Below, piece after piece: positions 2,835-20,600 of a stretch of DNA of 24,996 nt. Under the pieces are notes generated by a model. The model made no database searches, had not been told where the DNA came from, and saw nothing but the letters and a program-made list of their open reading frames with translations. Source of the stretch: a virus; the IMG/VR virus record IMGVR_UViG_3300025301_000104, positions 1 through 24,996 of that record. One strand, 5' to 3'. The first letter of the stretch is position 1. Every line of letters begins with the position of its first letter. A program made the position numbers and the translations under genes.

Positions 2835-4724
2835 ATGCCATTACAAAAGTTTTTATTTCGACCTGGAATAGATAGAGAAGGAACTGATTACTCAAATGAG
2901 GGGGGCTGGTTTGATTCTAATTTAGTTCGTTTCCGTAAGGGGCTTCCTGAAAAAATTGGCGGTTGGGCTAAAAACACGTCCAATACTTTTTTATCCACTT
3001 GTCGTGCCTTACACGCTTGGGTTAATTTAGAGTTAACTAAATACCTGGGAATGGGAACCACGTGGAAATACTACGTTTTACAAGGGGATGAATTTAACGA
3101 TATAACTCCTCTCCGAACCACTACTTCCGCAGGAGACGTTACTTTTTCTGCAACGAATGGTGATGCCACTATTACCGTTACTGATACTTCTCACGGAGCG
3201 GTGGTTAATGACTTTGTAACCTTTAGCGGTGCAGCTACTTTAGGCGGTCTTATTACCGCCGAGGTACTTAATCAAGAATATCAAATTGCGACTGTAACGA
3301 GTGCCAATGTTTACACTATTGAAGCCAAGGACACTGACGGGGACACCGTTACGGCGAACAGCAGTGATAGCGGCAACGGGGGTAGTTCCGTGGTTGGTGC
3401 TTATCAAATCAATGTCGGTTTAGATGTTTATGTAGAAGGCTCTGGTTGGGGTGCAGGTACATGGGGTGCAGGTACTTGGGGTAGTGTGAGTGCGATTAGT
3501 GCCTCTAGCCAATTGCGTAATTGGAGTCATGATAATTTTGGTGAGGACTTAGTAATGAATCCTAGAGGAGGAGGCGTTTTTTATTGGGATCAAAGTGGAG
3601 GAGCCACCACTAGAGCAGTCGCTGTTTCTGATTTAGCAGGAGCCAATTTAGCTCCGACAATTGCCCTACAAGTATTAGTTAGTGATATTGATAGACACGT
3701 CATTTGTTTTGGAGCTGACCCACTTAATAGCAGTAACCAAAGAACATCAGCGTCAGACCCCATGTTTATTTGTTGGAGCGATCAGGAAAACGTGACCGAA
3801 TGGGAACCTTTAGCCACTAACACAGCAGGGTCTTTTAGATTATCCGCAGGCTCTGCTATCGTAGGAGCGATACGAGCACGACAAGAAACTTTAGTTTGGA
3901 CTGATACTTCAATGTATTCTATGACATTTGTAGGGCAACCCTTTACTTTTTCCACTAACTTAGTAAACGAAGGGGTGGGATTAATTGGTCCCAAAGGGGT
4001 AGTAAATTCTCCCAAAGGAGTGTTTTGGATGGATAAAAAAGGCTTTTATAATTACACAGGACAAATTAATGACGTTCCCTGTAGTGTACAGGATTATGTA
4101 TTTAGTGATTTTGAAGAGGGACAGGCTTATCAAGTATTTGGATTTTTAAATAAAGAATTTGATGAAGTAGGTTGGTTTTATTGTTCGTCAGGAGAAACAA
4201 CAATTGATCGCTACGTCGTATACAACTACGATGAACAGGTATGGTCCATTGGTCAATTGAGTCGTAGTGCTTGGATTGATGAAGGTATCTTTAATAACCC
4301 TATAGCAACTTATACCACAGCCAATGTAGGTTATTTATATGATCATGAAACAGGAAATGATGCCGATGGTTCTCCGATGGACAGTGTTTATATAGAATCC
4401 AGTGATTTTGATATTGACCCTGCGGGGGAGGAGTTTCAACAAATACGACGTATTATTCCCGATATTAAATTTACAGGGAACGGTGGTTCGGATCAAACAA
4501 TTAATATTGTTTTAAAAAAGAGAAATTTTCCAGGGGAAAGCCTTTCCACGTCTTCTACAACCACCTGTACCGCCACTACAACACAAATTAATACTCGCTT
4601 ACGGGCACGGCAAGCGGCGTTGCGAATCGAATCCGATGACGACGGTTCTTCAGGAACTAGGTTAGGAGTAGGATTCCGAGTAGGAGCGATGCGAATGGAT
4701 TTACGTCCCAACGGTAAACGCTAA
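2835..4724 (+). CDS. Head-completion / packaged-DNA stabilization-like virion protein
   Basis: This 629-residue protein starts with a pattern (RPGIDREGTDYSNEGGW, VRFRKGLPEKIGGW) that I associate with marine-phage homologues of P22 gp10-type DNA stabilization or tail-tube proteins. Residues about 200-215 hold a short tandem repeat (GAGTWGAGTW), followed by NWSHDNFGEDLVMNPRGGG. The sequence is rich in beta strands throughout and has no signal or membrane segment, as expected for a virion component at the head-tail junction. Its stop shares one base with the ATG of the next gene. The exact position in the virion is inferred. Confidence 0.65.
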   Translation: MPLQKFLFRPGIDREGTDYSNEGGWFDSNLVRFRKGLPEKIGGWAKNTSNTFLSTCRALHAWVNLELTKYLGMGTTWKYYVLQGDEFNDITPLRTTTSAGDVTFSATNGDATITVTDTSHGAVVNDFVTFSGAATLGGLITAEVLNQEYQIATVTSANVYTIEAKDTDGDTVTANSSDSGNGGSSVVGAYQINVGLDVYVEGSGWGAGTWGAGTWGSVSAISASSQLRNWSHDNFGEDLVMNPRGGGVFYWDQSGGATTRAVAVSDLAGANLAPTIALQVLVSDIDRHVICFGADPLNSSNQRTSASDPMFICWSDQENVTEWEPLATNTAGSFRLSAGSAIVGAIRARQETLVWTDTSMYSMTFVGQPFTFSTNLVNEGVGLIGPKGVVNSPKGVFWMDKKGFYNYTGQINDVPCSVQDYVFSDFEEGQAYQVFGFLNKEFDEVGWFYCSSGETTIDRYVVYNYDEQVWSIGQLSRSAWIDEGIFNNPIATYTTANVGYLYDHETGNDADGSPMDSVYIESSDFDIDPAGEEFQQIRRIIPDIKFTGNGGSDQTINIVLKKRNFPGESLSTSSTTTCTATTTQINTRLRARQAALRIESDDDGSSGTRLGVGFRVGAMRMDLRPNGKR

Positions 4725-5050
4725 TGGCTAAATTATTAGAAACTAAATTACCCGTTGCGATAGGAGAAATTTCCCCTGAAACGTTTAACCGTTTAGTTAG
4801 GGTATTGGAGCTTAGCTTAAATAAAGTTGATATTGATTCTACTCTTTCCGTTAATGCTACAGAACGTAATAAAAATCAATTTCAAGCAGGCGATATTATT
4901 TGGAATTTATCCACCAGTCAATTACAACTATGGACAGGATCATTATGGGTAGATATTTATGCGGGAACAGAGCGAGGAGTCGAAGGTGTCAGTGGTTTGG
5001 GCAAATTAAGTATTTCTACCAACGGAGCAATCGAGGTACCCGTACTATGA
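4724..5050 (+). CDS. Hypothetical small virion-associated protein, 108 aa
   Basis: TAATG coupling to the stabilization-like gene and ATGA coupling to lysozyme place it in the same translational chain. It begins with a helical half (ETFNRLVRVLELSLNKVDID) followed by a beta-type segment, AGDIIWNLSTSQLQLWTGSL, of the kind seen in structural or tail-associated phage proteins. No catalytic motif was seen. Confidence 0.65.
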   Translation: MAKLLETKLPVAIGEISPETFNRLVRVLELSLNKVDIDSTLSVNATERNKNQFQAGDIIWNLSTSQLQLWTGSLWVDIYAGTERGVEGVSGLGKLSISTNGAIEVPVL

Positions 5051-5493
5051 ACATGGATAAATTAATGCAAGAGCTTATGGATGATGAAGGGTGTGTCTAT
5101 GAAATTTATGAGGATCATTTAGGCTATGCTACATTTGGAATTGGACATTTAATAACAGAAAAAGATGAAGAATATGGAAAGCCAGTGGGAACTCCTGTGT
5201 CAGAAGAACGGGTGGAAGAATGTTTTAATCAAGATATAAAAATAGTTTGTGAGGAACTAGATATGAAGGAACCTTGGTGGCGTAATTTAGACGACACTAG
5301 ACAACGAGTTATGGCTAATATGTGTTTTAATCTGGGGCATCCGCGTCTAAGTAATTTTAAAAGATTTTTAGCAGCTATGCACACTGCGCAGTGGGAAACA
5401 GCAGCTGTTGAAATGATGGATTCTAAATGGTCCAGTCAAGTAGGGGATAGAGCATTACGGTTAAGGGATAAGGTATTAAGAGGAGATGATTAA
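5047..5493 (+). CDS. T4-type lysozyme (glycoside hydrolase family 24 endolysin)
   Basis: The start at 5047 overlaps the previous stop (ATGA). An upstream frame extension to 4900 reads through the coding region of the previous gene and is rejected. The 148-residue protein has E14, D23 and T29 in DDEG...YEDHLGYATFGIGH, with the same spacing as the T4 lysozyme triad E11-D20-T26. It also carries the family signature GIGHLIT, and later MANMCFNLG and DSKWSSQVGDRALRLRD. It should cleave the MurNAc-GlcNAc bond of peptidoglycan at lysis. It has no signal peptide, so release would depend on a holin. Confidence 0.92.
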   Translation: MNMDKLMQELMDDEGCVYEIYEDHLGYATFGIGHLITEKDEEYGKPVGTPVSEERVEECFNQDIKIVCEELDMKEPWWRNLDDTRQRVMANMCFNLGHPRLSNFKRFLAAMHTAQWETAAVEMMDSKWSSQVGDRALRLRDKVLRGDD

Positions 5494-5934
5494 ATGTACG
5501 AATATAAATGTAAAGTTAAAAGAGTGGTGGATGGTGACACTATGGATGTTATTCTTGACCTTGGCTTCGATGTTCATCATGCTGTTCGCGTTAGGTTGGC
5601 TGGCATTGATACCCCTGAAAGTCGTACGCGAGACAAAGATGAAAAAGCACGTGGAAAACTCAGTAAAGCCTTTCTTAAAGAAAGTATTAAAGGGAAAAAG
5701 ATTGTCTTAAAAACTAAAATAAAAGACTCTAAAGGAAAGTTTGGGCGCGTAATAGCAGAAGTTTGGGCGGAGTTTGAAAAGGGCAGTTTACGCAATGTCA
5801 ATGAACTCATGATCAAAGAGTGTTACGCGGTTAAATATAACGCTGAAAATAAAGCCTTAGTAGAAGATGCACACCTAGCAAATAGAGCTATTCTTATTGA
5901 AAAAGGAATCTTTGTTCCTGTGAAGAAAAAGTGA
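5494..5934 (+). CDS. Staphylococcal-nuclease-like (SNase) thermonuclease homologue
   Basis: The 146-residue protein matches the SNase fold. VDGDT (D15) and RVRLAGIDTPE (R34, D39, E42) are followed by GKFGR (R85). These correspond to the calcium ligands and catalytic residues D21, R35, D40, E43 and R87 of staphylococcal nuclease, so activity looks intact. The ATG immediately follows the lysozyme stop, with GGAG at 5482-5485. There is no signal peptide, so it probably acts in the cytoplasm or after lysis, on host DNA or on released nucleic acid (inference). Confidence 0.9.
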   Translation: MYEYKCKVKRVVDGDTMDVILDLGFDVHHAVRVRLAGIDTPESRTRDKDEKARGKLSKAFLKESIKGKKIVLKTKIKDSKGKFGRVIAEVWAEFEKGSLRNVNELMIKECYAVKYNAENKALVEDAHLANRAILIEKGIFVPVKKK

Positions 5935-6332
5935 AATTAGCTCTCATTATGGGTGGACTGCTATTAGCAACAATAGCAGGTTCAGCGTATTGGATAGATA
6001 GACTACAGGATGATATAAGTACGTTAAAGGGTAATCAAATTGTTTTAGAAACCAAGATACAAGAACAAAACGAGGCGATAGAAAACCACCTTAATAGACA
6101 AAAACAAACCCAGACTCAATTAGTTTCCTTAGAGAGGGAAAAGCAAGAAGCGATGCGTGATGTAAATAAATTACGAAAAACATTTGCTTCTCATGATCTA
6201 GATGAACTGACCTTAGCAAAACCAGAATTAATGGAAGGTAAAATAAACAGGGCTTCTAAACGAGTTTTAGAAAATTTAGAAAAATTAACTGATCCAACTC
6301 AATTTGATGAAGAAGATAGCACTAATAGTTAG
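5931..6332 (+). CDS. Rz-like i-spanin candidate
   Basis: GTG start at 5931 overlaps the nuclease stop (GTGA). Residues 3-20 form one N-terminal membrane segment (ALIMGGLLLATIAGSAYWI). This is followed by a long charged coiled coil (residues about 22-80) and the motif DLDELTLAKPELMEGKINRA, which I recall from Rz-like proteins of marine phages. The topology (N-in, periplasmic coiled coil) is that of i-spanins, which join the inner to the outer membrane at lysis. The next gene, a lipoprotein, begins inside its 3' end, as in Rz/Rz1 pairs. Confidence 0.75.
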   Translation: MKLALIMGGLLLATIAGSAYWIDRLQDDISTLKGNQIVLETKIQEQNEAIENHLNRQKQTQTQLVSLEREKQEAMRDVNKLRKTFASHDLDELTLAKPELMEGKINRASKRVLENLEKLTDPTQFDEEDSTNS

Positions 6333-6669
6333 TTTGGCTTTAATAGCTTCAGGTTGTTCTATGATCCAGCCCAAAGCCAAACCTGTTTCTGTAACCACCA
6401 TAGCGGAACGTCCACCTATGTATCACCCACCATTGCCTATGGAAGTGCAGATGGATCCCGTGGATTGGGAGATCATGACTCCTGAAAGAATGGAAATTTA
6501 TTTAGATAATTTAGAAAAAGGAGAAGCTCCACGACGAGCATTTTATACGTTATCGAGTAAAGAGTACGAGCATTTAAGTATGGACATGGCGGACATCACT
6601 AGGTATATAAAAGATATATTAGGTATCATAAAGTTCTATAGGGACTACGATAAAGAAGAGGAGGACTAA
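6307..6669 (+). CDS. Lipoprotein, o-spanin (Rz1-like) candidate
   Basis: The ATG at 6307 is preferred to the in-frame TTG at 6304. The 120-residue product has a short signal sequence ending in the lipobox LIASGC (Cys at residue 17), so it should be an outer-membrane lipoprotein. A proline-rich stretch follows (PPMYHPPLP), typical of Rz1 proteins, then PERMEIYLDNLEKGE and an amphipathic C-terminal helix. It overlaps the i-spanin candidate by 26 nt. It is longer than lambda Rz1, so the assignment rests on topology, proline content and gene order. Confidence 0.72.
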   Translation: MKKIALIVSLALIASGCSMIQPKAKPVSVTTIAERPPMYHPPLPMEVQMDPVDWEIMTPERMEIYLDNLEKGEAPRRAFYTLSSKEYEHLSMDMADITRYIKDILGIIKFYRDYDKEEED

Positions 6670-6670
6670 A

Positions 6671-7057
6671 ATGAGTAATGACCCATCAGGAAGATTCGGC
6701 GGAGACATGGATAGAAATGAGGTAGAAATAGACCTTAATAAATTCATGGCATTATTACAAGAAAAAGCAGACCTTAAAGATAGAATTAGGGAATTGGAAG
6801 ATGAAGGCACTAAAAACCCTCATCAACGATGGATATTCTTAGCGCAAGCCGTGGATAGTTGGCGCATATTTCCAAGAGCTTTCTTAACTGTTTATATAGT
6901 TTTGCTTTATTACACAGTGATGTGGTTCATGGAACTAGAAGCACCTTCATTTGAGCAGTCAGGTTTAATCTCAGTTATTGTAGGTGCAGGAGCCGCCTGG
7001 TTTGGACTCTATGCAGGAACCTCAGGTGCATCTAAGAAATTTAAAGGCGAAGATTAA
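6671..7057 (+). CDS. Two-transmembrane protein, holin candidate
   Basis: A strong GGAGG lies at 6659-6663. The 128-residue protein has a soluble, charged N-terminus with a short coiled coil (residues about 22-45). A WRIFPRAF motif is followed by two hydrophobic segments, about 71-87 and 97-115, the second containing VGAGAAWFGLYAG. The short basic tail is KKFK. Similar proteins occur in lysis regions of marine phages and are usually unannotated or called holin-like. Its position right after the spanin pair supports a membrane role at lysis, but a holin function is inference. Confidence 0.6.
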   Translation: MSNDPSGRFGGDMDRNEVEIDLNKFMALLQEKADLKDRIRELEDEGTKNPHQRWIFLAQAVDSWRIFPRAFLTVYIVLLYYTVMWFMELEAPSFEQSGLISVIVGAGAAWFGLYAGTSGASKKFKGED

Positions 7058-7059
7058 AA

Positions 7060-7341
7060 ATGAAAGAAGTCTTTGGGTTAATTGGAGACGTAGGGTTTCC
7101 TATCGCCATAACTTTAGTCTGTGGTTTCTTTATTTTCTTAACTATCAAATACATACTAGAAAGTGTGGTTAGCCAAGTAAACGGTATCTTTGTTATAGTT
7201 CAAGGATTAGATAATAGAACTAAAACCATGAGTCATGATCTCATCAGAGTAGACGCTACTATGTGTAGTGTATTAGGTATTCGCCCAGATTTAGAAAGAA
7301 TTGCAAGAGCAGATGGAAAGGAAGATGCAAGGAAAGACTGA
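7060..7341 (+). CDS. YvrJ/UviB-like one-TM protein, copy 1
   Basis: The 93-residue protein begins IGDVGFPIAITLVCGFFIFL, the GFP-then-hydrophobic pattern of the YvrJ and BhlA/UviB small membrane protein families. It continues as a charged helix (LDNRTKTMSHDLIRVD). A single membrane segment spans about residues 11-32. Members of these families are often annotated as holin-like or bacteriocin-associated. It is followed at once by a second protein of the same plan, sharing one base (TGATG). Confidence 0.6.
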   Translation: MKEVFGLIGDVGFPIAITLVCGFFIFLTIKYILESVVSQVNGIFVIVQGLDNRTKTMSHDLIRVDATMCSVLGIRPDLERIARADGKEDARKD

Positions 7342-7616
7342 TGGATATAGCACAAGCCATCAGCGATTACGGCTTCCCTATTGTTGCTACAGTGGGTCTG
7401 CTTTACATGATTTATTTTATTTGGAACTTTATAACCACCAAAATAAAGACTCGATTGGGAGAAACTCAAAAGATAGTGGTAGATTTAATAGACCGTATCA
7501 GACTCCTGGACAACGATATTATCAGACTACAACAGAAATTAGATACTGTGATAGAGTTAAAGGAAAGGATGAAATTAGATGAACAAGCGCAACAAGAAGC
7601 AAATAAAAAAACCTAA
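7341..7616 (+). CDS. YvrJ/UviB-like one-TM protein, copy 2
   Basis: This 91-residue product repeats the plan of its upstream neighbour. It has YGFPIVATVGLLYMIYFIWN as the membrane segment (residues about 10-30), then a coiled-coil helix (LLDNDIIRLQQKLDTVIELK) and a charged tail. The two look like diverged tandem duplicates. Its 3' end overlaps the CsgF-like gene by 38 nt, so it links the lysis/membrane block to the curli-like module. Confidence 0.6.
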   Translation: MDIAQAISDYGFPIVATVGLLYMIYFIWNFITTKIKTRLGETQKIVVDLIDRIRLLDNDIIRLQQKLDTVIELKERMKLDEQAQQEANKKT

Positions 7617-8121
7617 TTACAAATTATTAGGCACCTGTGTAATTATAATTTTTGCCATATTAATGGTTGGTTTATTACAAGCAGATCAATTAGTACATAA
7701 GTTTGGTAGCCCTGCATTTAACGGACAAAATCAATCCGCACATTATTTAACGATTGATGAGCAAGAAAGAACTAGACAGGAAAAGATAGCTGAAGAGATA
7801 CAAGATGTTTTAGAAGAAGCGGAACGTGAAGCAGACAATACAGTATTAGCTAAGTTTATTCGTAACCTGGAATCAAGGATCTATTCAACACTGGCGAAGG
7901 ATATTTCTGAATCATTATTTAATTACAGTGGTATACCCACAAAAGATAATCCGATAGCAGGTGAGATAAATTTAGAGGGTAACATATTAAAATGGATAAA
8001 TGACGGAACCACAATTACCTTAATCATTGAAGAATGGTTTGACGGGGTGCTTATTTCTACAACTGAAATAGTTATTCCAGTAGGAAGTTTTGGTGGCTGT
8101 TGGATTGATTGTGACGGATGA
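7579..8121 (+). CDS. csgF: CsgF-like curli assembly factor
   Basis: Start ATG at 7579 with AAGGA about 10 nt upstream. A long basic n-region (residues 1-15) precedes a hydrophobic segment (16-33) with a plausible cleavage after A35. The mature N-terminus would then be DQLVHKFGSPAFNGQNQSAH. This aligns with the start of E. coli CsgF (as I remember it, xMTFQFRNPNFGGNPNNG), the part that inserts into CsgG. The C-terminal half also follows CsgF: FIRNLESRIYSTLAK, then INLEGNILKWINDGTTITLI and EIVIPVGSF. In curli systems CsgF caps CsgG at the cell surface and couples secretion to nucleation. It is longer than the E. coli protein (180 versus ~138), with an insert before the C-terminal domain and a Cys-x3-Cys tail (CWIDC). 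It overlaps csgG by 4 nt. Confidence 0.85.
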   Translation: MNKRNKKQIKKPNYKLLGTCVIIIFAILMVGLLQADQLVHKFGSPAFNGQNQSAHYLTIDEQERTRQEKIAEEIQDVLEEAEREADNTVLAKFIRNLESRIYSTLAKDISESLFNYSGIPTKDNPIAGEINLEGNILKWINDGTTITLIIEEWFDGVLISTTEIVIPVGSFGGCWIDCDG

Positions 8122-8918
8122 AGTGGTATTTAGTTCTAGTCGTTATATTATTAAATAGTTGCGCTCCTATAGCGTTAAATCCCAAGTACGATAAATGTAA
8201 GTTCCCCTTTACTTGTGAACAGGGTCCCCAGATTGTTCCGACTTCAGCTAATCAATTATTAAACCTTCCTCCCCCTAATACTAAAGCCGTAGTTGCAGTT
8301 TATAGTTTCCCTGACTTAACAGGACAGAGAAAATCTAGTGATAACCTAGCCAGTTTTAGTACCGCCGTTACACAGGGTGCAGAACACATGCTTATACAGG
8401 CATTACGCGATGCAGGGAGGGGAAGCTGGTTTGTTGTTGTGGAAAGAACAGGCTTAGATGGTCTGACCAGAGAAAGACAACTCATTAAAAACACTAGGCA
8501 AACTTACGCAGGAGAAGGGGAAAACATACTTAAACCCTTACTTTATGCAGGAATACTATTAGAGGGGGGAATTGTCTCTTACGATACCAATCTAAGAACA
8601 GGAGGTAATGGAGCGAGGTATTTAGGTATAGGTATAAGGAATCAATACAGAGAAGATAAAGTAACGGTTATTCTTAGGGCAGTTTTGGTGCAAACAGGCG
8701 AAGTAATAATCAATATAACAGCTACAAAAACCATACTATCTACAGGTAGAGGAACTGATTTATTCAGATTCTATGAACTAGGAACGCAATTAGGAGAAGG
8801 TGAAACAGGGAGTACATTTAACGAACCTGTAGGACTGGCTACAAGAAAAGCAATAGAAGCTGCCGTCTATGGATTAGTCATAGATGGAATAGAAAAAGAG
8901 CTTTGGGATTTTAATTAG
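8118..8918 (+). CDS. csgG: CsgG-like curli secretion channel lipoprotein
   Basis: ATGA overlap with csgF. A very short signal sequence ends in LLNSC, with Cys15 as lipidation site. The body follows E. coli CsgG closely: VYSFPDLTGQRK, FSTAVTQGAEHMLIQAL, VVVERTGLDGL, then SYDTNLRTGGNGARYLGIG, KTILSTGRGTDLFRF, EGETGSTFNEP and a C-terminal DGIEKELWDF. CsgG forms a nonameric outer-membrane pore that exports unfolded curlin subunits. The constriction phenylalanine appears kept (F80 of FSTAV); the preceding Asn is Ser, and the eyelet Tyr seems replaced in a one-residue-longer loop (alignment by eye). The ~25-residue C-terminal extension of the E. coli protein is absent. Confidence 0.93.
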   Translation: MKWYLVLVVILLNSCAPIALNPKYDKCKFPFTCEQGPQIVPTSANQLLNLPPPNTKAVVAVYSFPDLTGQRKSSDNLASFSTAVTQGAEHMLIQALRDAGRGSWFVVVERTGLDGLTRERQLIKNTRQTYAGEGENILKPLLYAGILLEGGIVSYDTNLRTGGNGARYLGIGIRNQYREDKVTVILRAVLVQTGEVIINITATKTILSTGRGTDLFRFYELGTQLGEGETGSTFNEPVGLATRKAIEAAVYGLVIDGIEKELWDFN

Positions 8919-8932
8919 AGTGTACTTATATT
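8903..8932 (+). promoter_or_regulatory. Possible promoter before curlin-like gene 1
   Basis: TTGGGA (8903-8908) and TATATT (8927-8932) are separated by 18 bp, and the following 36-nt gap is the first clear break between genes since 2835. Subunit genes often need more transcript than the transporter genes. Matches are partial (4/6 and 5/6) in AT-rich DNA, so this is weak. Confidence 0.25.
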
Positions 8933-8954
8933 ATACTTGCATTGGAGGAATAAG

Positions 8955-9644
8955 ATGAAGAAATTTATTACTTTAATTATTCTGTTAGTTACGTCATCTA
9001 TATACGCGGGTAACAACGACATATATATTACCCAGACGGGGACAGGATTAACGCTTACGATTGACCAGATTGGTGCAACCAATAAAGTTGGTACTACTTC
9101 AGCTAGAGCTATTGTAAGTGGTACTTCTATGACTTTAGACATAGACCAAATAGGTAGCAGCAATACTCTGGCAGCGAGCATTCTACAAGGCAATAGTTCC
9201 AGTTGGACTTACAGCAATACAGGAGATAGCGGTTCAGCTACTTTTGCAGTGGGTGCAACGGGAGACGTAGCAGGATCAGATTTTGATTGGGCTTCTTCTG
9301 GTGGAGATGGAAATGTCTTAATCTTTACGCAAGGGGCAGACGCAACTGCTACATCAGGAGATCAAGACTTTGCTATTACGGGTGCTTCCAATAACCTTAA
9401 TGTTAAATGTGAGGTGATAGGTTGTACTAATGCTTGGACTATCTCAGGAAGTTCTAATGATATAGACACTGTGCAGTCAGGAGCCAATGACCATGACATT
9501 ACAGTCAATTTAACAGGTAGTTCAATGGATGTAGACATACACCAAACTGATACCACAAGCACAAATGTAGCTAATTTATTATTACAAAGTAGTGGTGGAT
9601 CAGGAAGTTCTGTTGATATTGACCAATGCGCCAGTGGCTGTTAA
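8955..9644 (+). CDS. Curlin-like (CsgA/CsgB-type) secreted repeat protein 1
   Basis: The ATG at 8955 is preferred to an upstream in-frame codon near 8937 because GGAGG lies at 8944-8948 and the resulting protein opens with a clean signal peptide (KKFITLIILLVTSSIYA, cut before GNND). The mature protein has curlin-type repeats of the form ITQTGTG..LTIDQIGATN and LDIDQIGSSN, then more degenerate Ser/Thr/Gly/Asn/Asp-rich repeats with alternating hydrophobic residues. The Gln-x-Gly-x2-Asn signature is the hallmark of the CsgA/CsgB amyloid fold. It has no obvious CsgA-like N22 secretion segment. Two cysteine pairs are present (CEVIGC and the terminal CASGC). It would be exported through CsgG (inference). 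Its 3' end overlaps the FecR gene by 19 nt. Confidence 0.78.
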   Translation: MKKFITLIILLVTSSIYAGNNDIYITQTGTGLTLTIDQIGATNKVGTTSARAIVSGTSMTLDIDQIGSSNTLAASILQGNSSSWTYSNTGDSGSATFAVGATGDVAGSDFDWASSGGDGNVLIFTQGADATATSGDQDFAITGASNNLNVKCEVIGCTNAWTISGSSNDIDTVQSGANDHDITVNLTGSSMDVDIHQTDTTSTNVANLLLQSSGGSGSSVDIDQCASGC

Positions 9645-10708
9645 TACTTTTATTTGCTACTAATGCCTACTCCGAGATAGGAGAAATATCAGAACTTAGG
9701 GGTAATGGAGAAATCCTAAGACAAACAGGGGGAGACAAACTTCTTGCAGAACTCGCTTTGGACATTCTTTCTTATGATAGCGTGTTTACTGGTAATGGGC
9801 GCATCGCTATACAATTTGTTGATGCGTCTATTATAAAGCTGACAGAGCATTCTAAGATCGTTATAGACGAATACATATACGACCCCGACCCAACTAAAAG
9901 TAAGTTAGCTTTAAACATGGCGAGCGGGACGGCTCGTTTTATAACAGGTGCACTAGGAAAGATAGATAAAAGAAACATTTCTATTCGCACTCCATCCGCC
10001 AACATCGCTATTCGTGGAACTGATTTCACTACCACTGTAGATGAATTGGGAAGATCTTTAGTTATTTTATTGCCCGATGCAGACGGGACCACCTCTGGAG
10101 AAATAGCAGTAGAAACATGGTCAGGAACAGAGATACTTAATAGACCTTTTCAAGCTACGATGGTTTCTACCTTTGAATCACAGCCTACTAGAGCAGTTGT
10201 TTTAGGTAATCTTACATTAGGTTTAATAGATAATATGCTAATTGTTAGTCAACCCCCAGAGGTAGTAGAAGCAGTAGAAGAACAACAAGCAGATTCTAAA
10301 ACAGAACTTGACAAAGACTTCTTTGAAGAAGGAAACGATTTAGAGAAAGACTACTTAGAGGAAGAGGAAGAAATCTCTAGACTAGATATAGACTTATTAA
10401 GCTTTGATTTTCTAGTGGATTTATTAGCCATAGTGGAAACAGGTTCTAGAAAGAAAACTGAATCAGGGGGAGAACTAGACGGGATTGAATTAATGGGGCT
10501 TGTTCCAGGATTTGATCCAGTGTATCAAACATACTCTTTTGTAGAGGGGGAATACTTATACTTAGTTCATCACGGCAGCAATACATTTGATATTGCGTTA
10601 GATAAATACGCAGCAACTTATTTAAATATAAATACGGCTGGTGTTATAATGGAGATAGAGGTAAATGGTGCGGGCGACAATACTATTATTATTTTTCAGT
10701 CTCCTTAG
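9626..10708 (+). CDS. FecR-domain exported protein
   Basis: A 16-residue signal peptide (MRQWLLILLFATNAYS) is followed by a FecR domain (about 48-150) with its usual core GTARFITGALGKID and ISIRTPSANIAIRGTDF. FecR domains are periplasmic or extracytoplasmic sensor/scaffold modules; outside iron signalling they often occur in exported proteins of unknown role. No sigma/anti-sigma partner or N-terminal cytoplasmic part is visible, so this is not a classical FecR regulator. Residues about 212-250 are very acidic (EEEEE). The C-terminal ~50 residues (FDIALDKYAATYLNINTAG, then VNGAGDNTIIIF) have strand-like N/G/D spacing reminiscent of a curlin repeat. It overlaps curlin-like gene 1 by 19 nt and curlin-like gene 2 by 44 nt, so the three are probably made together. 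Confidence 0.82.
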   Translation: MRQWLLILLFATNAYSEIGEISELRGNGEILRQTGGDKLLAELALDILSYDSVFTGNGRIAIQFVDASIIKLTEHSKIVIDEYIYDPDPTKSKLALNMASGTARFITGALGKIDKRNISIRTPSANIAIRGTDFTTTVDELGRSLVILLPDADGTTSGEIAVETWSGTEILNRPFQATMVSTFESQPTRAVVLGNLTLGLIDNMLIVSQPPEVVEAVEEQQADSKTELDKDFFEEGNDLEKDYLEEEEEISRLDIDLLSFDFLVDLLAIVETGSRKKTESGGELDGIELMGLVPGFDPVYQTYSFVEGEYLYLVHHGSNTFDIALDKYAATYLNINTAGVIMEIEVNGAGDNTIIIFQSP

Positions 10709-11468
10709 TGGTAGTCTGTTAGCGGGGGATAATGTGATAACCCTGCAAACGAAAGGCAGTGGTTCAACCATAACGATTAAACAGGCGGGCAACAGCAACA
10801 CTACAGGAGTCTATTGTGGCTTGGGTAGTTTTGATAATTCTTTATTAAACACGCATACTTGCGACAACGCCACTATTACCGCCAATGTGACAGGCAACTC
10901 CAACATTGTTTATTCACAGTCTGTTTGGTCTAACCATACGGGGCAAAGTTGGATAACCACTGTTGACGGCAACGATAACTACGCCGTTATAGATATGGAC
11001 GAAGACGACAACACCTCTAGAATTACACAAACAGGCGATGATAATCAAGCGTGGATATTGGGTTCGGGCGATGACAACGTATATAAAATAGAACAGCTAG
11101 GCGATGATTACTACGCCAAAATCTATGCGTTTGGAGATGATGCCGATACTTGGATAACCCAAGAGGGTACGGGGGACCATAACGCTTACGTGCTTAATTA
11201 TCCAGGGGGTGATAATAATTCAACCAGACTAATCCAGAAAGGTTCAGGCAATAAAGACGCAGACATATTCTTTTACAGTGGAGCTGATGACAATGACGTT
11301 ACTTTAACGCAACAAGGGAACGGAGCGCACGGTTCAAATATGAAGTTCTATACAGATGATTACGATGTAACGGTGGTTCAAAAGGGTGCCACTAATAAAT
11401 CCTATATTGCTACGTTTAATTGCAGTAGTAATTGCGATAAAACCATAACCATAATGCAACAAGATTGA
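10665..11468 (+). CDS. Curlin-like secreted repeat protein 2, acidic
   Basis: A signal peptide of about 20 residues (ending SLLSGSLLA) precedes 247 residues of curlin-type repeats of about 20-24 residues. They carry Gln-x-Gly and Gly-x-x-Asn positions (IKQAGNSN, ITQTGDDNQAWI, IEQLGDDYY, ITQEGTGDHNAYV, LIQKGSGNKDADI, LTQQGNGAHGS, VVQKGATNKSYI). Many repeats have Asp-Asp at the turn (GDDN, GDDA, GADDND), making the protein much more acidic than typical CsgA. There is an early cysteine pair near residues 51-66 and a late pair (FNCSSNC). It is a plausible second fibre subunit or nucleator. It overlaps the cyclase start by 4 nt. Confidence 0.8.
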   Translation: MVRATILLLFFSLLSGSLLAGDNVITLQTKGSGSTITIKQAGNSNTTGVYCGLGSFDNSLLNTHTCDNATITANVTGNSNIVYSQSVWSNHTGQSWITTVDGNDNYAVIDMDEDDNTSRITQTGDDNQAWILGSGDDNVYKIEQLGDDYYAKIYAFGDDADTWITQEGTGDHNAYVLNYPGGDNNSTRLIQKGSGNKDADIFFYSGADDNDVTLTQQGNGAHGSNMKFYTDDYDVTVVQKGATNKSYIATFNCSSNCDKTITIMQQD

Positions 11469-13252
11469 TAAAGAAAAGTCTTCCTTTACTGTTACTGTTG
11501 GGTGTTCTAGGAACACCTTTACTATTTCAAGTAGTTCCTTTAGAAATTATAAAGCTCAAAGTTTTTGACGCTTATGTGCCTGAGAAGGAACCCTCAGGTT
11601 ATTTCTCTATCCTTAATATAACTGAAGAGGACATTGCACGTGAAGGCGGCTACCCTCTACCTAGACAACGGTTAGCGGAAATACAGGTTGACTTATTAAA
11701 CAATGGAGCGATTGGAGTTGGCTGGGTTATGGCTTTCCCACAGCCCGATAGGCTTGGTGGAGATCCCGTATTTGCAGAGACACTAGCCTATGCCCCCAGC
11801 GTCTTGGCGATGTTTGAAAACGATAGCGGAGACTACCCACCGACCACAGGCACGGTCATTATGGGAGAAGACCGTGGAGGAATAGACGCAGAAGGAGTTG
11901 TTCAAAACATTGATATGCTTAAACAGAACGCCAATCAAGGGATTGCTGTCGCTAGAACAGAGGTGGATTCTTTAGTAAGGCGTTTACCTTTATTACTAAG
12001 AACCCCTGATGGGTGGGTTCCTGCTTACGGCACGGAAGTATTAAAAATACTAGCGGGGGCTGACACTTATTTAATTAAAACCAATGAAAACGGTGTAGAA
12101 GAAATACGGGTGAGGGGCTTAAACCCCGTGCCTGTTGATTCATTAGGGCGTAAGTGGATCAGTTGGGTCGATACACCGCAAACAGACCTACAGGAAATGC
12201 AGGTCAAAGATAAGTTTGTCTTTGTAGGCTTTACGGCTAAAGGCATAATGCCTCAATTAGCCACCCCTGCTGCTTTAATGGAACCTCACAAAATACAAGC
12301 GGCACTGGCAGAAAGTATCTTAATCGAAGGGAGTCCTTACGTCCCTGACTATGCCCTAGCCTTAGAGTTGGGTATTTTTACCCTCTCAGTGCTGTTTATT
12401 TGGCTCCTACTGCACGTTTTTGGGATTACGTGGGGGGTAGTCTTATTTATGGCTACTATGGCGTCTACGGCGTTTTACGGCTATTGGACAATTCAACAGG
12501 GGTTATTAATCGACGTAACGTGGGCTTTAATCTCTCAATTTATAACGGGTGCTACGGCTTTTTACTTACGCTTTAGAGAACAATACAAGTTACGACAGCA
12601 AATTAAGAAGCAGTTTGAACACTATTTAGACCCTCGTCAAGTAAAAAGATTACAAGATAACCCTGACCTTTTAGCTTTAACAGGGGAGCGTAAGTACGCA
12701 ACCTTCTTATTCACTGACGTGAGAGGGTTTACTTCCATGTCAGAAAAGCTAGACCCTACGGAAGTAACTGAAATTATTAACGTCGTACTAACCCAGCAAG
12801 TAGAGGCAGTACAAAAGTACGGGGGCATGGTAGATAAGTTTATTGGGGATGCGATGATGGCGGTGTTTAATGCGCCCTTGGACCAGGAGCATCATGAAGA
12901 AGAGGCAATTAACGCGGGTATACAAATCATCCATAATATGCAAAAAGCGAATGAAGAATTAGAACGGAGGGGAATTGAAGAACGAATTAAAATTGGGATT
13001 GGAATTAACTCTGGTTACGCGGTAATTGGGAACATGGGTAGTGATACACGGTTTGATTATTCTTGCATCGGGGACAGTGTAAATCTCGCCGCCCGCCTTG
13101 AATCTAGTACCAAGACCGTGGGGAAAGATTTACTAATTGGGGAATCTACAAAAGAACGCTCAAAACGTAGCTTAATTAAGTTAGAACCCATAGAAGTAAA
13201 AGGGAAAGAAAAGTTAATTAATCTATACACAATTAATGATTCTGCAGTATAA
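11465..13252 (+). CDS. CHASE2-domain class III adenylate cyclase (membrane receptor type)
   Basis: Start is a TTG at 11465 in a TTGA overlap; the next in-frame Met is at residue 90, inside the sensor domain. Order: signal-anchor helix (about 5-25), CHASE2 extracytoplasmic sensor (about 28-290), three membrane helices (about 297-318, 320-343, 346-367), a linker helix (FEHYLDPRQVKRL) and the cyclase domain (about 405-590). Catalytic residues look complete: metal ligands D418 (FTDVRGFT) and D462 (FIGDAMMAVF), substrate Lys K458, S533 where Thr/Asp is usual, and N540 and R544 (VNLAARLE). The Lys favours ATP over GTP, so cAMP is the likely product. In bacteria CHASE2 cyclases sense periplasmic signals and are often beside FecR-domain genes, as I recall. 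Finding one with curlin genes in a phage genome is unusual. Confidence 0.92.
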   Translation: MIKKSLPLLLLLGVLGTPLLFQVVPLEIIKLKVFDAYVPEKEPSGYFSILNITEEDIAREGGYPLPRQRLAEIQVDLLNNGAIGVGWVMAFPQPDRLGGDPVFAETLAYAPSVLAMFENDSGDYPPTTGTVIMGEDRGGIDAEGVVQNIDMLKQNANQGIAVARTEVDSLVRRLPLLLRTPDGWVPAYGTEVLKILAGADTYLIKTNENGVEEIRVRGLNPVPVDSLGRKWISWVDTPQTDLQEMQVKDKFVFVGFTAKGIMPQLATPAALMEPHKIQAALAESILIEGSPYVPDYALALELGIFTLSVLFIWLLLHVFGITWGVVLFMATMASTAFYGYWTIQQGLLIDVTWALISQFITGATAFYLRFREQYKLRQQIKKQFEHYLDPRQVKRLQDNPDLLALTGERKYATFLFTDVRGFTSMSEKLDPTEVTEIINVVLTQQVEAVQKYGGMVDKFIGDAMMAVFNAPLDQEHHEEEAINAGIQIIHNMQKANEELERRGIEERIKIGIGINSGYAVIGNMGSDTRFDYSCIGDSVNLAARLESSTKTVGKDLLIGESTKERSKRSLIKLEPIEVKGKEKLINLYTINDSAV

Positions 13253-13332: not shown

Positions 13333-13548
13333 ATGGCACGTAAGAAAAAGGGTGGAAAGTGGATTAAAAAAGCCATCAAACGCCCAGGAGCTTTTAAGAA
13401 GAAGGCTAAGAAAGCTGGTATGTCAACCAGTGCTTATTCTACTAAGGTCTTAAAGAAAGGTTCTAAAGCCTCAACCCGTACCAAGCGACAAGCTGCTCTG
13501 GCTAAAACATTAGGAAAAATGCGTAAGAAAAAGAGGAAGAAAAAGTAA
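13333..13548 (+). CDS. Small lysine-rich protein, 71 aa
   Basis: GGAG at 13323-13326 precedes the ATG. About 40% of residues are Lys or Arg, with a centre reading PGAFKKKAKKAGMSTSAYST and a tail of almost pure Lys/Arg (MRKKKRKKK). Small proteins of this kind recur at the head of virion gene blocks in marine phages. A role in binding packaged DNA or in the virion interior is plausible from charge alone but not shown. The stop overlaps the next ATG (TAATG). Confidence 0.75.
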   Translation: MARKKKGGKWIKKAIKRPGAFKKKAKKAGMSTSAYSTKVLKKGSKASTRTKRQAALAKTLGKMRKKKRKKK

Positions 13549-14528
13549 TGGCATTACCATGGAAACAAATCTTTAAGATAGGATCACAAGTGCTAGGCTC
13601 TATAGCTGGAGCTAAATCAGCATTTGGGGATCAAGGTGGAGGAGTAGGTGGAGCTACTTCTGCACAAACACAAGGGGGACAAACAGGACTGCAGTATCAA
13701 GACGTGGGTGGCACAGAGGTTACTCCGTTTGAGTATGAAGAATTATTAAATCGGTTACAAGAAGAAGACGAACAAAGAGAAATAGCAGAAGCCATGGCAC
13801 TAGCCCAACAACAAGGTTTATGGAGTGGTGGAATTATAGGTTTAATGCAGGGCGGTCCCTTGTACGCGAACGAAGGATCTCCTCTTTCCCCAGCAGAGTT
13901 AGAAAAATGGATAGGTGAAAAACCCTCTCGTATGAAACCCATGAGTTTACCCCCAGATCCAGAAATTACAACGTTTGTAACGAGAGGTGCACACACGGAA
14001 TCTGACGAGGATGTTCCAGAAATTGTAGTAGAAGAAGCACAAGTTACTCCTGGGACAACTATAGAAGATTTAAAAGCAGATTTAGCACAAATAGCAAAAC
14101 AACAAGATATGAGGGATACATTTGAAACGGTAGATGATTTAATCGAAATCATAGGTAAAATGAGAAATCCCCAAAAATCTACTATATCACCCCGTAAATC
14201 AGTAACTCCTTTACCTGGAGGGGGTCTCGGTAAGCGACAAGCCCCGTACCCACAACCTAAAGGCTCAGGCATCACGCCCTTTATGTTTCAACCCGCAGCA
14301 GGCGGTGGAGCTTTAGGCAGGTCCATGTTTGCACAAAACTACATGCCGCATGGGGGAGCGATGCGCGGTCCTGGGGGTCCAAAAGATGATTTAATACCCG
14401 TGATGGCGAGCGATGGAGAGTATATGCTCTCAAAAGCCGCCGTCGATCAGGCGGGCGGAGGCAATCACCGTAAAGGGATTGCCCGTTTAGAACAATTTAA
14501 TCAATTAGGAAATAGAAGATATGGCTGA
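13548..14528 (+). CDS. Probable virion protein with conserved C-terminal GPG..DDLIPVMASDGEY motif
   Basis: The 326-residue protein has a hydrophobic, Gly/Ala-rich N-terminus (FKIGSQVLGSIAGAKSAFG) and a helical acidic stretch at about 62-95. The middle is proline/serine-rich and low complexity. The conserved C-terminal module contains GPGGPKDDLIPVMASDGEYM, then LSKAAVDQAGG and GIARLEQFN. I recognise that C-terminal module from structural proteins of marine podovirus-like phages, where its role is unknown. It overlaps the next gene by 8 nt. Confidence 0.65.
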   Translation: MALPWKQIFKIGSQVLGSIAGAKSAFGDQGGGVGGATSAQTQGGQTGLQYQDVGGTEVTPFEYEELLNRLQEEDEQREIAEAMALAQQQGLWSGGIIGLMQGGPLYANEGSPLSPAELEKWIGEKPSRMKPMSLPPDPEITTFVTRGAHTESDEDVPEIVVEEAQVTPGTTIEDLKADLAQIAKQQDMRDTFETVDDLIEIIGKMRNPQKSTISPRKSVTPLPGGGLGKRQAPYPQPKGSGITPFMFQPAAGGGALGRSMFAQNYMPHGGAMRGPGGPKDDLIPVMASDGEYMLSKAAVDQAGGGNHRKGIARLEQFNQLGNRRYG

Positions 14529-15552
14529 TAGATCAGTACGCGAATTTAGCACACAAGCCCCCGCAGGGTATGTGGGTGACTTTTTACGGGGCGGGATTTT
14601 CCCTTACGCTCAGCGTTTTTTACACGGGCAGTTTGCCAATATGGGAGCCCCCGATAGTAGTCCCTATACCTACACGGGACGACGGGTAGCGGAGTTTGAT
14701 CCCAGAGAAAAGTACGGCATGGAAATGTCGGATGCGGCAATTGGTAGTTACCAACCTTACTTAGGGGCACAAGCGGGAATGATAGACCGAGCGGCTAGTT
14801 ATCTAGATCCCACAGGGTACAAAGACTATATGTCACCCTACACTGACGAAGTAATCGACAGGACTATGGGTGATATGCGTGAGCAAATTGATTTACAAAA
14901 AGGTGCTGCCCGAGACCGTGCGGTCAGCTCAGGAGCTTTTGGCGGTAGCCGTGGCAGAATAGCAGAAGGCGAAATTGAACGGGGAGGGTTACGGTCCATG
15001 GGAGACATAGCCGCAGGTTTACGCGAAAGAGGCTTTGGACAAGCGCAAAAGCAAGCCTTTCAAGCGGCAGGTGGTTTTGGTAACTTAGGTAATATGTACG
15101 GTGGCATGGCGAGTATGCTACCGCAGTTACAAACAGGAGATATTAATCGTACCATGGGAATGGGCGGTTTAGGTAGAGGAAGAGGTCAATCGCTCGACGA
15201 TCTGGCTTATCAAAACTTTGTCGGACAATACAACCTACCGATGCAAACACTCGGTAACGTAGGCGCATTAACCGCGTCCCTTGGACCAATGGCGGGTGGT
15301 TATGGCTACGCGGGGCAAGGCATGCCGACTGAGTTTCCAGGTGGCAGTTCTTATCAACCTAGCACAGGTGGTATTGGTACCCCTGGCGCAGGCAGTTATC
15401 AACCTTATCCAGGAAGTGGGTTAGGTGGGGGTGCGCCTACAGGTTATGGAGTTTCTACAGGCGGCTATAATTACAACACTTACGGGTCTAATATGCCGAT
15501 TGCTCATGCTCGTAACGGCGGCGGCATCGGGAGCCTAAAGTACCGTGGCTAA
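14521..15552 (+). CDS. Probable virion protein, Gly/Tyr/Met-rich
   Basis: The 343-residue product has a helical core with YMSPYTDEVIDRTMGDMREQ and a basic, Ala/Ser-rich helix (RDRAVSSGAFGGSRGRIAEG). A C-terminal third follows, very rich in Gly, Tyr and Ser (GSSYQPSTGGIG and similar), likely disordered. This composition is typical of internal or ejected virion proteins in marine phages. The assignment to the virion rests on composition and position. Confidence 0.62.
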   Translation: MADRSVREFSTQAPAGYVGDFLRGGIFPYAQRFLHGQFANMGAPDSSPYTYTGRRVAEFDPREKYGMEMSDAAIGSYQPYLGAQAGMIDRAASYLDPTGYKDYMSPYTDEVIDRTMGDMREQIDLQKGAARDRAVSSGAFGGSRGRIAEGEIERGGLRSMGDIAAGLRERGFGQAQKQAFQAAGGFGNLGNMYGGMASMLPQLQTGDINRTMGMGGLGRGRGQSLDDLAYQNFVGQYNLPMQTLGNVGALTASLGPMAGGYGYAGQGMPTEFPGGSSYQPSTGGIGTPGAGSYQPYPGSGLGGGAPTGYGVSTGGYNYNTYGSNMPIAHARNGGGIGSLKYRG

Positions 15553-20200: not shown

Positions 20201-20600
20201 CACCACGGCAGGAGCCCGCCGACAGATACAAGAGGAACTTACTGACCCTAAAATAAATTATTTAAAACGATTCCTTATTCCACCTTTAACACAATTTGGA
20301 AGAAGGGTTACAGCTGGTGAAAAATTAGTAGCAGAACGAAACTTACGATTTGTTAGCGATATTATGCGAGATGAAAAATTATTTAAGGCTTATGTAGATA
20401 CTATTACAGGTAGAAAGAAAATGGTTAACTTTATAAAGTTATTACATACTTATAATAAAAATTACATGAACGATATTGCCAGTACCCTAGATTCCTATGA
20501 CGAAGTAGAAAAGGAACAACGACCCACTAAAAAAGAATCAGAGAGGTGGCGACGTGCAGTGCCTCAATCTTTTGAAGAAATTTATGGAGCACAACGCTAA
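17292..20600 (+). CDS. Large putative internal / ejection virion protein, 1102 aa
   Basis: The longest gene in the window, starting 1 nt after the previous stop. The product is almost wholly helical and highly charged, with a modestly hydrophobic region at about 295-355 (GNAVLSAGPAGVEFTRLVLG, SGLIFFFSYLGNQGIDIAL). I recognise no transglycosylase or other enzyme motif. Size, helical content and position resemble large internal core or DNA-ejection proteins of podoviruses, but homology is not visible. The stop shares one base with the next ATG (TAATG). Confidence 0.6.
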   Translation: MPTLDEAIALKVEELKGKPVRVGQDIPNPNITYGSLYGDEELKIAVLKASPILQQQVRGIKGDEAVDAEIRRFDEEIKPRRTSRYLRPSLNLTEEELAPSYAQAMKNFRETERAQARARESGYIRGNLPESYLVPRTPFRPFGLDTAMRQQERGFDPRKEIDFEGVLQFKSALAGLGPRWYTPEDLNYTKQYLGTSSEARKENPDIRGKFAERLPGTFAWVNPRNTDDGIAYFEEGKEPVLFDSAFINGTDFLEVALQETPLVASEILIGVKGLNKFDEFLKAIPGDKGWVGRALENVAGNAVLSAGPAGVEFTRLVLGTATGVHDRDVVEMLKDSGLIFFFSYLGNQGIDIALNGIPKLYRGITGRDVSASQINEIKEAIKRQQASKEGKKVKTLAGTDEPVSLLEIDEAIEELSTEIGQQIPKYNPTLAQGSKDGRMADIERLLLQNTSDPRYAKFYEELMKGNEETIQQFFRALFNNLDEDVTGQTVARELTQLWGRQEAGFIKDGEMVIADLIQSLDNVKALGSGKPVLDDVLDKQASSKLFNRFTTRINETARTYKETLATTVDDEITNLGLRDLTFSGRKFRNQIADFFEAGQPSGKMNIGQKQIQKTFNELFPEEMLERLTRYSKGDITLPELNQIRMELNSFASSLDPSQLAERKIFNLVRELQDGMENQMYSVIRNSNISKREADHLIDVFNAQKFGTELANSEIIIGLGRQQPESVINYLFSTGTKGARKNTRVRDFMDFLENTNSQGQIDYIRNSTIDYIKRNFLDIAEETPFNAAKAYQTFLRANRGTLKEIFPEEQFKQVYQTPKAFQKNIIEPLEKINRKIAVLEARYGESNLFNIVSRILATGEKAKASGELIDDLALIDDLLDSATPAERIILEKQISDVTKKYIITKTSDDGLFDVRKLNQLMNEGFAPGELVGRDLSFEGVYGKLLGKDADKFLERLAVLRDIGLRQTEDLTTTAGARRQIQEELTDPKINYLKRFLIPPLTQFGRRVTAGEKLVAERNLRFVSDIMRDEKLFKAYVDTITGRKKMVNFIKLLHTYNKNYMNDIASTLDSYDEVEKEQRPTKKESERWRRAVPQSFEEIYGAQR

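Follow-up and report, generated by a model that had tools for sequence, protein, structure and literature searches.

A pelagiphage-type curli secretion module with FecR and CHASE2 cyclase genes in a podovirus-like marine phage

The stretch of DNA analysed here (the window) is the 24,996-base IMG/VR record IMGVR_UViG_3300025301_000104, a partial phage record with a GC content of 41 %, which encodes a type VIII secretion (curli) module together with a FecR-domain protein and a CHASE2 adenylate cyclase. Eight consecutive genes make up this module, and six of the seven junctions between them are overlaps of 1–44 nucleotides, the remaining one being a gap of 36 nucleotides. Scans for promoters and terminators gave no excess over shuffled sequence. 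The eight genes are as follows:

7060..7341, + strand: u2, holin-like small single-transmembrane protein, 93 amino acids (hydrophobic segment 11–29; family matches)
7341..7616, + strand: u3, second small single-transmembrane paralogue, 91 amino acids (likeness to HTVC008M and Melnitz; synteny)
7579..8121, + strand: CsgF homologue, exported, 180 amino acids (Pfam CsgF; phrog_35372)
8118..8918, + strand: CsgG outer-membrane secretion channel, 266 amino acids (Pfam; solved E. coli CsgG)
8955..9644, + strand: curlin 1, divergent exported curlin-repeat subunit, 229 amino acids (profiles; all-beta model)
9626..10708, + strand: FecR-domain exported protein, 360 amino acids (Pfam FecR; model; fold matches; terminal motif)
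10665..11468, + strand: curlin 2, probable main fibre subunit, 267 amino acids (Pfam Curlin_rpt; solved curlins)
11465..13252, + strand: CHASE2–transmembrane–class III adenylate cyclase, 595 amino acids (Pfam CHASE2 and Guanylate_cyc)

A sequence-only reading of this DNA had placed CsgF, CsgG, two curlins, a FecR protein and a CHASE2 cyclase at 7579–13252 of a phage contig, which Pfam and profile searches bear out, and its coordinates are correct apart from the start codon of curlin 1, an ATG at 8955. That curlins, FecR protein and cyclase form one nearly self-contained unit also holds, although the unit comprises eight genes with u2 and u3 instead of the six proposed. The cultured myoviruses HTVC008M and Melnitz carry all eight genes in the same order, but with only 26–54 % protein identity and at a different place in the genome.

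CsgF was recognised by Pfam (PF10614, E 2.1e-07, 31.6 bits against a cut-off of 25.8) and by phrog_35372 (E 2e-30), while phmmer returned no solved relative. The channel protein matched PF03783 with an E value of 1.2e-55 and, over residues 37–265, the solved CsgG of E. coli with 1.8e-46. Both the CsgG channel and CsgF of a type VIII secretion system are present. CsgG begins with a lipoprotein-type start whose Cys15 is nearly invariant. At residues 74, 79 and 80, aligned to E. coli CsgG and taken by us to be the positions of the channel constriction, the window protein has two serines and keeps the phenylalanine, which is replaced by leucine in HTVC008M and Melnitz. Two of these presumed constriction positions differ from E. 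coli, and Pfam gave no match to CsgE, CsgC or CsgD in the 19 of 28 listed window proteins scanned in this partial record; an altered constriction and the failure to find a CsgE gate would both suit a channel through which the infected cell takes up nutrients or large molecules. Such an import has been proposed in PMC7029224 and PMC9599517, yet it leaves the two curlins and CsgF unexplained, and we regard it as very unlikely.

For curlin 2, matches were obtained to PF07012 (Curlin_rpt, E 2.5e-12) and, below their cut-offs of 160 and 165, to the NCBIfam models for CsgA (54.8 bits) and CsgB (37.7 bits). Its family profile matched the solved curlin 8c50 with an E value of 7.6e-21 and the major curlin subunit 8enq with 1.8e-5, and it is the probable main fibre subunit. 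Curlin 1 is accepted as a curlin because its family profile aligns to that of curlin 2 with a hhalign probability of 99.4 and to 8c50 with an E value of 2.2e-5, and because its predicted structure is all-beta (predicted local distance difference test 87.9) and aligns to beta-solenoid proteins with Z scores of up to 16.4; Foldseek found no match to this model at E 0.001. Curlin repeats are thus detected in curlin 2 by Pfam and in both proteins by family profiles matching solved curlins, which, with the solenoid-like model of curlin 1, answers the concern raised beforehand that the subunits might not be curlins. Curlin 1 occurs in 84 loci, and curlin profiles recognise every one of them. The phage csgG and FecR loci compared here are the nearest relatives among the matches listed, and a single population or contig may be represented among them more than once.

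The FecR protein (PF04773, E 3.4e-11) is predicted to consist of a confident N-terminal domain, an acidic stretch of low confidence at 206–264 and a confident all-beta part at 281–360. In fold comparisons, which cover mainly the N-terminal part and barely test residues 281–360, the N-terminal fold resembled PupR/FecR-like periplasmic signalling domains with Z scores of 13.9–16.1 (6ovk, Z 16.1). All 81 complete FecR proteins end in a hydrophobic-x-hydrophobic-x-Gln pattern followed by no more than four residues. The same terminal pattern closes 50 of 53 open reading frames at the place of curlin 2, compared with 7 of 84 at the place of curlin 1, 18 of 510 other open reading frames and none of 58 cyclases; in many curlin 1 proteins a comparable strand is followed by a longer tail. 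As the end of fecR overlaps the start of the curlin 2 gene in most loci, this overlap may shape the motif, although the motif is kept in L168, where the automatically chosen starts give no overlap, and in L177, where they give an overlap of one nucleotide.

We also compared the FecR C-terminus with the curlins by profile. A curlin-repeat profile scored 8 of 22 non-redundant FecR C-termini above the 95th percentile of their shuffles and one above all of them, and hhalign gave a probability of 4.7 with curlin 2 and of 1.4 with curlin 1, the latter aligned elsewhere in FecR. The C-terminal profile beat column shuffles in 200 of 200 cases against curlin 2 and in 199 of 200 against curlin 1. These tests are weak or unspecific, and the FecR C-terminus as a curlin homologue is unproven; that its curlin-like last strand serves as a fibre anchor or sensor is a lead suggested by the terminal motif, not a result.

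One explanation that takes up this lead is that FecR is a retention anchor of the LapA type, its domain held beneath CsgG, its stretch threading the channel and its C-terminus lying in the fibre, so that the fibres would be tethered to the cell and CHASE2 would read tension or occupancy. LapA/MpAFP-type modules likewise join a folded periplasmic N-terminal domain through a linker to an exported part, but they use a TolC-like channel where the phage has CsgG, and retention is a proposal here. The N-terminal part of FecR resembles the Marinomonas adhesin anchoring domain 5ix9 (Z 7.5, root mean square deviation 2.0 over 73 residues; profile E 0.01), retention modules of adhesins reside in the periplasm (PMC13090378), a 60-residue low-confidence stretch separates two confident parts, and the final strand ends as curlin 2 does. 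Yet the profile match to 5ix9 is marginal, the FecR/PupR signalling domain is the better fold match, the 206–264 stretch contains conserved residues and is hence not plain disorder, the likeness to curlins was not significant or not specific in profile comparison, and the terminal motif may be shaped by the gene overlap, although L168 and L177 keep it. Overall, the anchor is a doubtful alternative to a signalling FecR protein.

The cyclase combines CHASE2 (PF05226, E 1.4e-22) with a Guanylate_cyc domain (PF00211, E 2.9e-21). Residues D418, K458, D462 and R544 are kept in all 49 aligned relatives, N540 in 47 and D537 in 44, and since these are presumably the metal, substrate and transition-state residues of class III cyclases, cyclase activity is expected from the sequence. 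Its sensor and catalytic halves seem to differ in history: among 1,225 cyclase pairs, 84 have sensors at least 65 % identical with catalytic halves below 50 %, and 32 show the reverse. L007, for example, compares to the window with 96 % identity in FecR and 85 % in the cyclase sensor, but 49 % in the catalytic half. From such diverging identities we infer that the sensor half may remain part of the module and the output half be replaced.

FecR and cyclase accompany the curli genes in phages with few exceptions. Among 103 csgG loci, including the phage-like contig L027 of a metagenome-assembled genome (MAG), FecR was found near csgG in 71 of 71 that extend at least 3 kb downstream; for the cyclase, which needs 6.5 kb, the count was 42 of 44. 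The two others, L138 and L146, carry FecR and lack the cyclase despite ample downstream room. Starting instead from FecR (72 new loci among 80), CsgG was present in 44 of 44 loci with room and the cyclase in 38 of 39. Of 50,697 phage records, seven contain CsgG: two belong to HTVC008M, four to Melnitz strains, and the last is a 1.5-kb Salmonella phage record. FecR was confined to the six HTVC008M and Melnitz records, which also yielded the cyclase; two further, partial cyclase matches came from Acinetobacter phage records. The Salmonella phage record, OR851715.1, has its csgG-like stretch over 684 of 1,499 bases and is possibly host DNA.

The two small genes u2 and u3 lie directly upstream of csgF, overlapping, and each encodes one hydrophobic segment in the window. 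Of 14 family members, all match phrog_18771 and 8 match the holin family phrog_4898 (best E 5.1e-05); none of 14 matches a kinase family in Pfam. Identities to HTVC008M and Melnitz amount to 54 % and 48 % for u2, and to 48 % and 44 % for u3. Within the 50,697 phage records u2 is found solely in the six of HTVC008M and Melnitz, all with CsgG, FecR and cyclase. Where the sequence before a phage csgG gene reaches 2.5 kb or more, it contains at least one u2/u3-like open reading frame in 77 of 78 cases and two in 63, the exception being L163, where both genes stand downstream on the opposite strand. In the reverse direction, CsgG was present in 40 of the 56 new u2 loci that continue for at least 4 kb beyond u2; of the 16 others, 12 have a cyclase, FecR or curlin match on the opposite strand and four have none within the stretch. 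Going by this conserved neighbourhood, u2 and u3 belong to the module, which hence counts eight genes rather than six.

A small holin-like pair beside a pore invites the explanation that CsgG–CsgF is a lysis or permeability device, with u2 and u3 timing release and the fibres being secondary. PMC9004378 proposes a pore resembling a gated secretin or a pinholin, and the module stands among lysis genes in this phage and in many relatives. This explanation is unlikely, however, as the curlins, superfluous for a mere pore, are kept with it (curlin 1 in the 84 loci mentioned), the window already has lysozyme and spanin-like genes, and the HTVC008M module lies between a 2-oxoglutarate oxygenase gene and tail genes. 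The idea of the sequence-only reading that the fibres form part of a release structure is neither supported nor refuted by these results, and the holin-like pair keeps it alive.

The kind of module described here is already known, and this phage provides one further member. PMC9599517 (2022) reports an ordered series of genes, ‘HK’, CsgF, CsgG, CsgA/B, FecR, in many cases another CsgA/B, and adenylate cyclase, from nine podovirus genomes and, on re-examination, from myoviruses, and PMC7029224 and PMC9004378 treat the same genes in myoviruses. The notion that subunits, sensor and cyclase had not been described as one viral unit therefore falls, and the suggested roles in aggregation and in blocking superinfection are not new either, having been put forward in PMC9599517 as ‘sibling capture’ and superinfection defence. 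The window shares with the published pelagiphage module the order CsgF–CsgG–CsgA/B–FecR–CsgA/B–cyclase and the absence of detected CsgE, CsgC and CsgD. The preceding genes differ: one or two histidine kinases in the published description, which the window does not show, and holin-like single-transmembrane proteins here. We assume from their position that u2 and u3 are the ‘HK’ genes of PMC9599517; if so, the two ‘histidine kinase’ genes of that module appear to be misnamed and to encode holin-like single-transmembrane proteins. For phage curli modules, the literature covered, subscription papers being mostly outside its scope, yielded no mention of a FecR–fibre anchor, a holin-like pair, an exchange of cyclase halves or an alternative cassette.

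The window probably represents the right arm of a phage distantly related to the HTVC023P type, because its terminal helicase is 51–56 % identical to those of HTVC027P and 023Pt_psg01, with position and strand as in HTVC023P-type phages, and because its large virion protein shares about 33–36 % identity with these phages. The virion protein is 33–40 % identical to counterparts in phages of Pelagibacter, Roseobacter and one gammaproteobacterial host. The upstream join of the module is spanned by other IMG/VR contigs, for example L004, L005 and L022; L004 shows 99–100 % protein identity to the window from the virion gene through curlin 1, and L005 covers the virion gene through the cyclase. Among the contigs compared, none further crosses the exact downstream join. 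In the related phage L370, which lacks the module, virion, lysozyme and spanin-like genes are followed directly by the window's downstream genes, and in L119 and L351 a homologue of the window's downstream gene at 13548–14528 comes after the cyclase; both flanks of the module are therefore phage. A chimera of bacterial and viral DNA, the other concern attached to the sequence-only reading, was rejected, with the upstream join crossed in L004, L005 and L022 and the L370 backbone joining the downstream genes without the module. Of the statement that phage lysis and virion genes flank the module, the phage nature of both flanks stands, and the virion nature of the downstream genes is supported in part: Pfam had no match for the proteins at 13548–14528 and 14521–15552, and PHROGs none below E 0.1 for that at 17292–20600. 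Third-position GC lies at 0.27–0.29 in u2, csgF, csgG, curlin 1 and fecR versus 0.24–0.31 in six phage genes, and is higher, at 0.37–0.42, in u3, curlin 2 and cyclase, which may indicate a separate history for part of the module.

To place the module against bacterial systems, 80 csgG loci were kept of 336 relatives in genome contigs and three phage-like MAG contigs were set aside. The resulting 77 loci have at least 5 kb on both sides in 62 cases and on at least one side in 73. Neither FecR nor cyclase was detected near csgG in any of them with phage-protein profiles at E 1e-5, which divergent members may escape, and no u2 or u3 was found either. Within the bacterial set, FecR or cyclase near csgG occurs only in L027 and L039, and L044 carries u2/u3; these three short MAG contigs look phage-derived. 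L027 has all eight module genes in order, and another contig of its MAG (G003:C173) shares small non-module genes with HTVC008M and Melnitz. A Pfam check of 28 genomes (26 with CHASE2, two without), in which 32 of 39 CsgG places were compared and seven weak ones left out, found FecR or CHASE2 within 15 kb of CsgG at only two places, both in G003. A bacterial source operon with all parts was thus not found among the loci and genomes compared.

FecR and CHASE2 do, however, occur as neighbours away from csgG. In alphaproteobacterial csgG genomes, FecR lies within 5 kb of 15 of 38 CHASE2 places (G003 excluded), in 11 of these 38 upstream on the same strand, and a CHASE2 cyclase clustered with a FecR protein is described for Campylobacterota (PMC9239204). 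As in the phage, the FecR-domain protein adjoins the CHASE2 cyclase in such bacterial pairs, but no curli genes are nearby, and the bacterial FecR proteins of L212 and L214, the two recognised by the phage FecR profile, are short and lack the curlin-like end. Bacterial curli operons (csgBA, csgDEFG), in turn, share channel, cap and curlin subunits with the phage module, which adds FecR, cyclase and u2/u3 and in which CsgE, CsgC and CsgD were not found. Since the signalling pair was not found beside the 77 bacterial csgG genes, yet FecR–CHASE2 neighbours exist elsewhere, we infer that a curli core and a FecR–CHASE2 signalling pair were united in phages. As a side observation, the Rhodobacteraceae MAG Water_Bin34 (G003) has at least three contigs (L027, L044, L215) with the phage curli module or u2/u3 and appears to contain phage contigs, and the same applies to the Pelagibacter MAG contig L039.

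The site occupied by the module also holds other cargo, as revealed by seven loci with relatives of the window gene at 13548–14528. It is empty in L370, where virion, lysozyme, nuclease and spanin-like genes precede the window's downstream genes and no module is present. In L371, whose backbone genes are up to 94 % identical, and in L374, three other genes stand between the homologues of the window genes at 6671–7057 and at 13548:

L371, 1762–5803: alternative cassette, three genes
L374, 1135–5068: alternative cassette, three genes
Loci L377–L454: further loci with the alternative cassette

One of these genes encodes 396–398 residues with long Asn-Thr repeats (phrog_20531, unknown function), and another a large protein of 797–839 residues to which neither Pfam nor PHROGs assigned a family under the limits applied. 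The product of the remaining gene is small, begins with a hydrophobic stretch and has matches of the coiled-coil type. Judged by eye, the Asn-Thr-repeat and the large protein have exported-type starts. A nidogen-like domain, suspected by eye in the large protein, was not supported by Pfam. The large protein has 116 relatives in IMG/VR, and among 78 loci that carry it (from the best 80 of the 116, some contigs repeated) CsgG, FecR and cyclase occur in none; conversely, a single one of 173 curli loci, L158, also has the alternative cassette. Where the neighbours are in view, one pair of flanks, the 6671 gene to the left and the inner spanin-like gene to the right, surrounds curli in 16 loci and the alternative cassette in 13. 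In four loci the cassette fills the interval from the 6671 gene to the 13548 gene, which is where the window itself has its module. As the site can hold curli, the alternative cassette or nothing, curli seems to be an exchangeable cargo, one of two or more made up of exported proteins. L409, which carries the alternative cassette, has at 2875–2952, just behind the 6671-type gene, 26 residues that match the start of csgF; these may be the remnant of a curli module since lost, or no more than a signal peptide of similar sequence.

Building on the gene identities, their order and conservation, the intact catalytic residues, the predicted curlin fold and the cassette exchange at this site, we consider it fairly probable that the window carries a pelagiphage type VIII secretion module with FecR–CHASE2 signalling, used for changing the surface of the infected cell. 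During infection, the phage would place the CsgG–CsgF channel in the outer membrane of the host, and the two exported curlins would stack into amyloid fibres on the cell. FecR would reside in the periplasm, where its beta-rich C-terminus would contact the curlins or the base of the fibre, and its FecR domain would signal the state of secretion or of the fibre to the CHASE2 sensor, by which the cyclase would set cyclic AMP in the host cell. In this scheme u2 and u3 would be inner-membrane parts of the module and not kinases. The proposed use, altering the infected-cell surface from a cargo site near the lysis genes, is suggested because sister phages have a different cassette of exported proteins there, which lends a surface role some support. 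The phage might benefit by aggregating fresh hosts or by shielding from rivals, both already proposed in print.

Several points speak against this reading. Melnitz-infected cultures showed no clumping in cytograms or transmission electron microscopy, according to PMC9004378. Curlin 1 stays under the Pfam cut-off with 17 versus 20.7 bits (E 0.0057), the second curlin could be placed in only 53 of 68 loci with a complete FecR and a cyclase match, and the CsgE gate was not found by Pfam among the 19 scanned proteins of this partial genome. Contact between FecR and the curlins is a lead drawn from the terminal motif and a moderate model, and three overlapping middle segments of FecR score nearly as high as the C-terminus against the curlins, or higher. 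A further argument, that the Melnitz module is incomplete and without curlin genes (PMC9004378), fails because the Melnitz record MZ577097.1 (L003) annotates two curlin repeat proteins, at 4516–5235 and 6294–7310, which can be aligned to the window curlins.

A still more elaborate combination, rather doubtful as a whole, would be an amyloid that reports on itself: FecR, anchor and periplasmic gauge in one, would thread CsgG into the base of the fibre and set host cyclic AMP through an exchangeable CHASE2 cyclase, the holin-like pair would couple the assembly to the inner membrane or to release, and curli would be one of several interchangeable surface-coat cassettes at a dedicated phage site. 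If true, it would join a retention-type curli anchor to a viral feedback circuit that is not assembled in the bacteria examined here. The module is reported to be widespread in marine phages. To the surface-changing module our analysis adds the holin-like pair, the separate FecR–cyclase pair, FecR as a candidate link between fibre and cyclase, and the alternative cassette, which turn a list of auxiliary genes into a putative circuit and a cargo site, both open to testing one gene at a time. If fibres form, phage-made amyloid could affect encounter rates among abundant ocean bacteria.

Elsewhere in the window, a lysozyme gene (PF00959) and a nuclease gene (PF00565) precede two short genes at 5931–6669 that resemble, by sequence alone, a spanin pair of inner-membrane coiled-coil protein and lipoprotein. 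A repetitive fibre-like protein with an endosialidase-type chaperone domain (PF13884) at its end is encoded at 12–1121; it has multiple overlapping matches in L005 and L024, as expected of longer arrays. Low-complexity repeats are present in two proteins of no assigned role, with ETPAYVE units at 20600–22639 and GGPPMGG units at 22642–23139.

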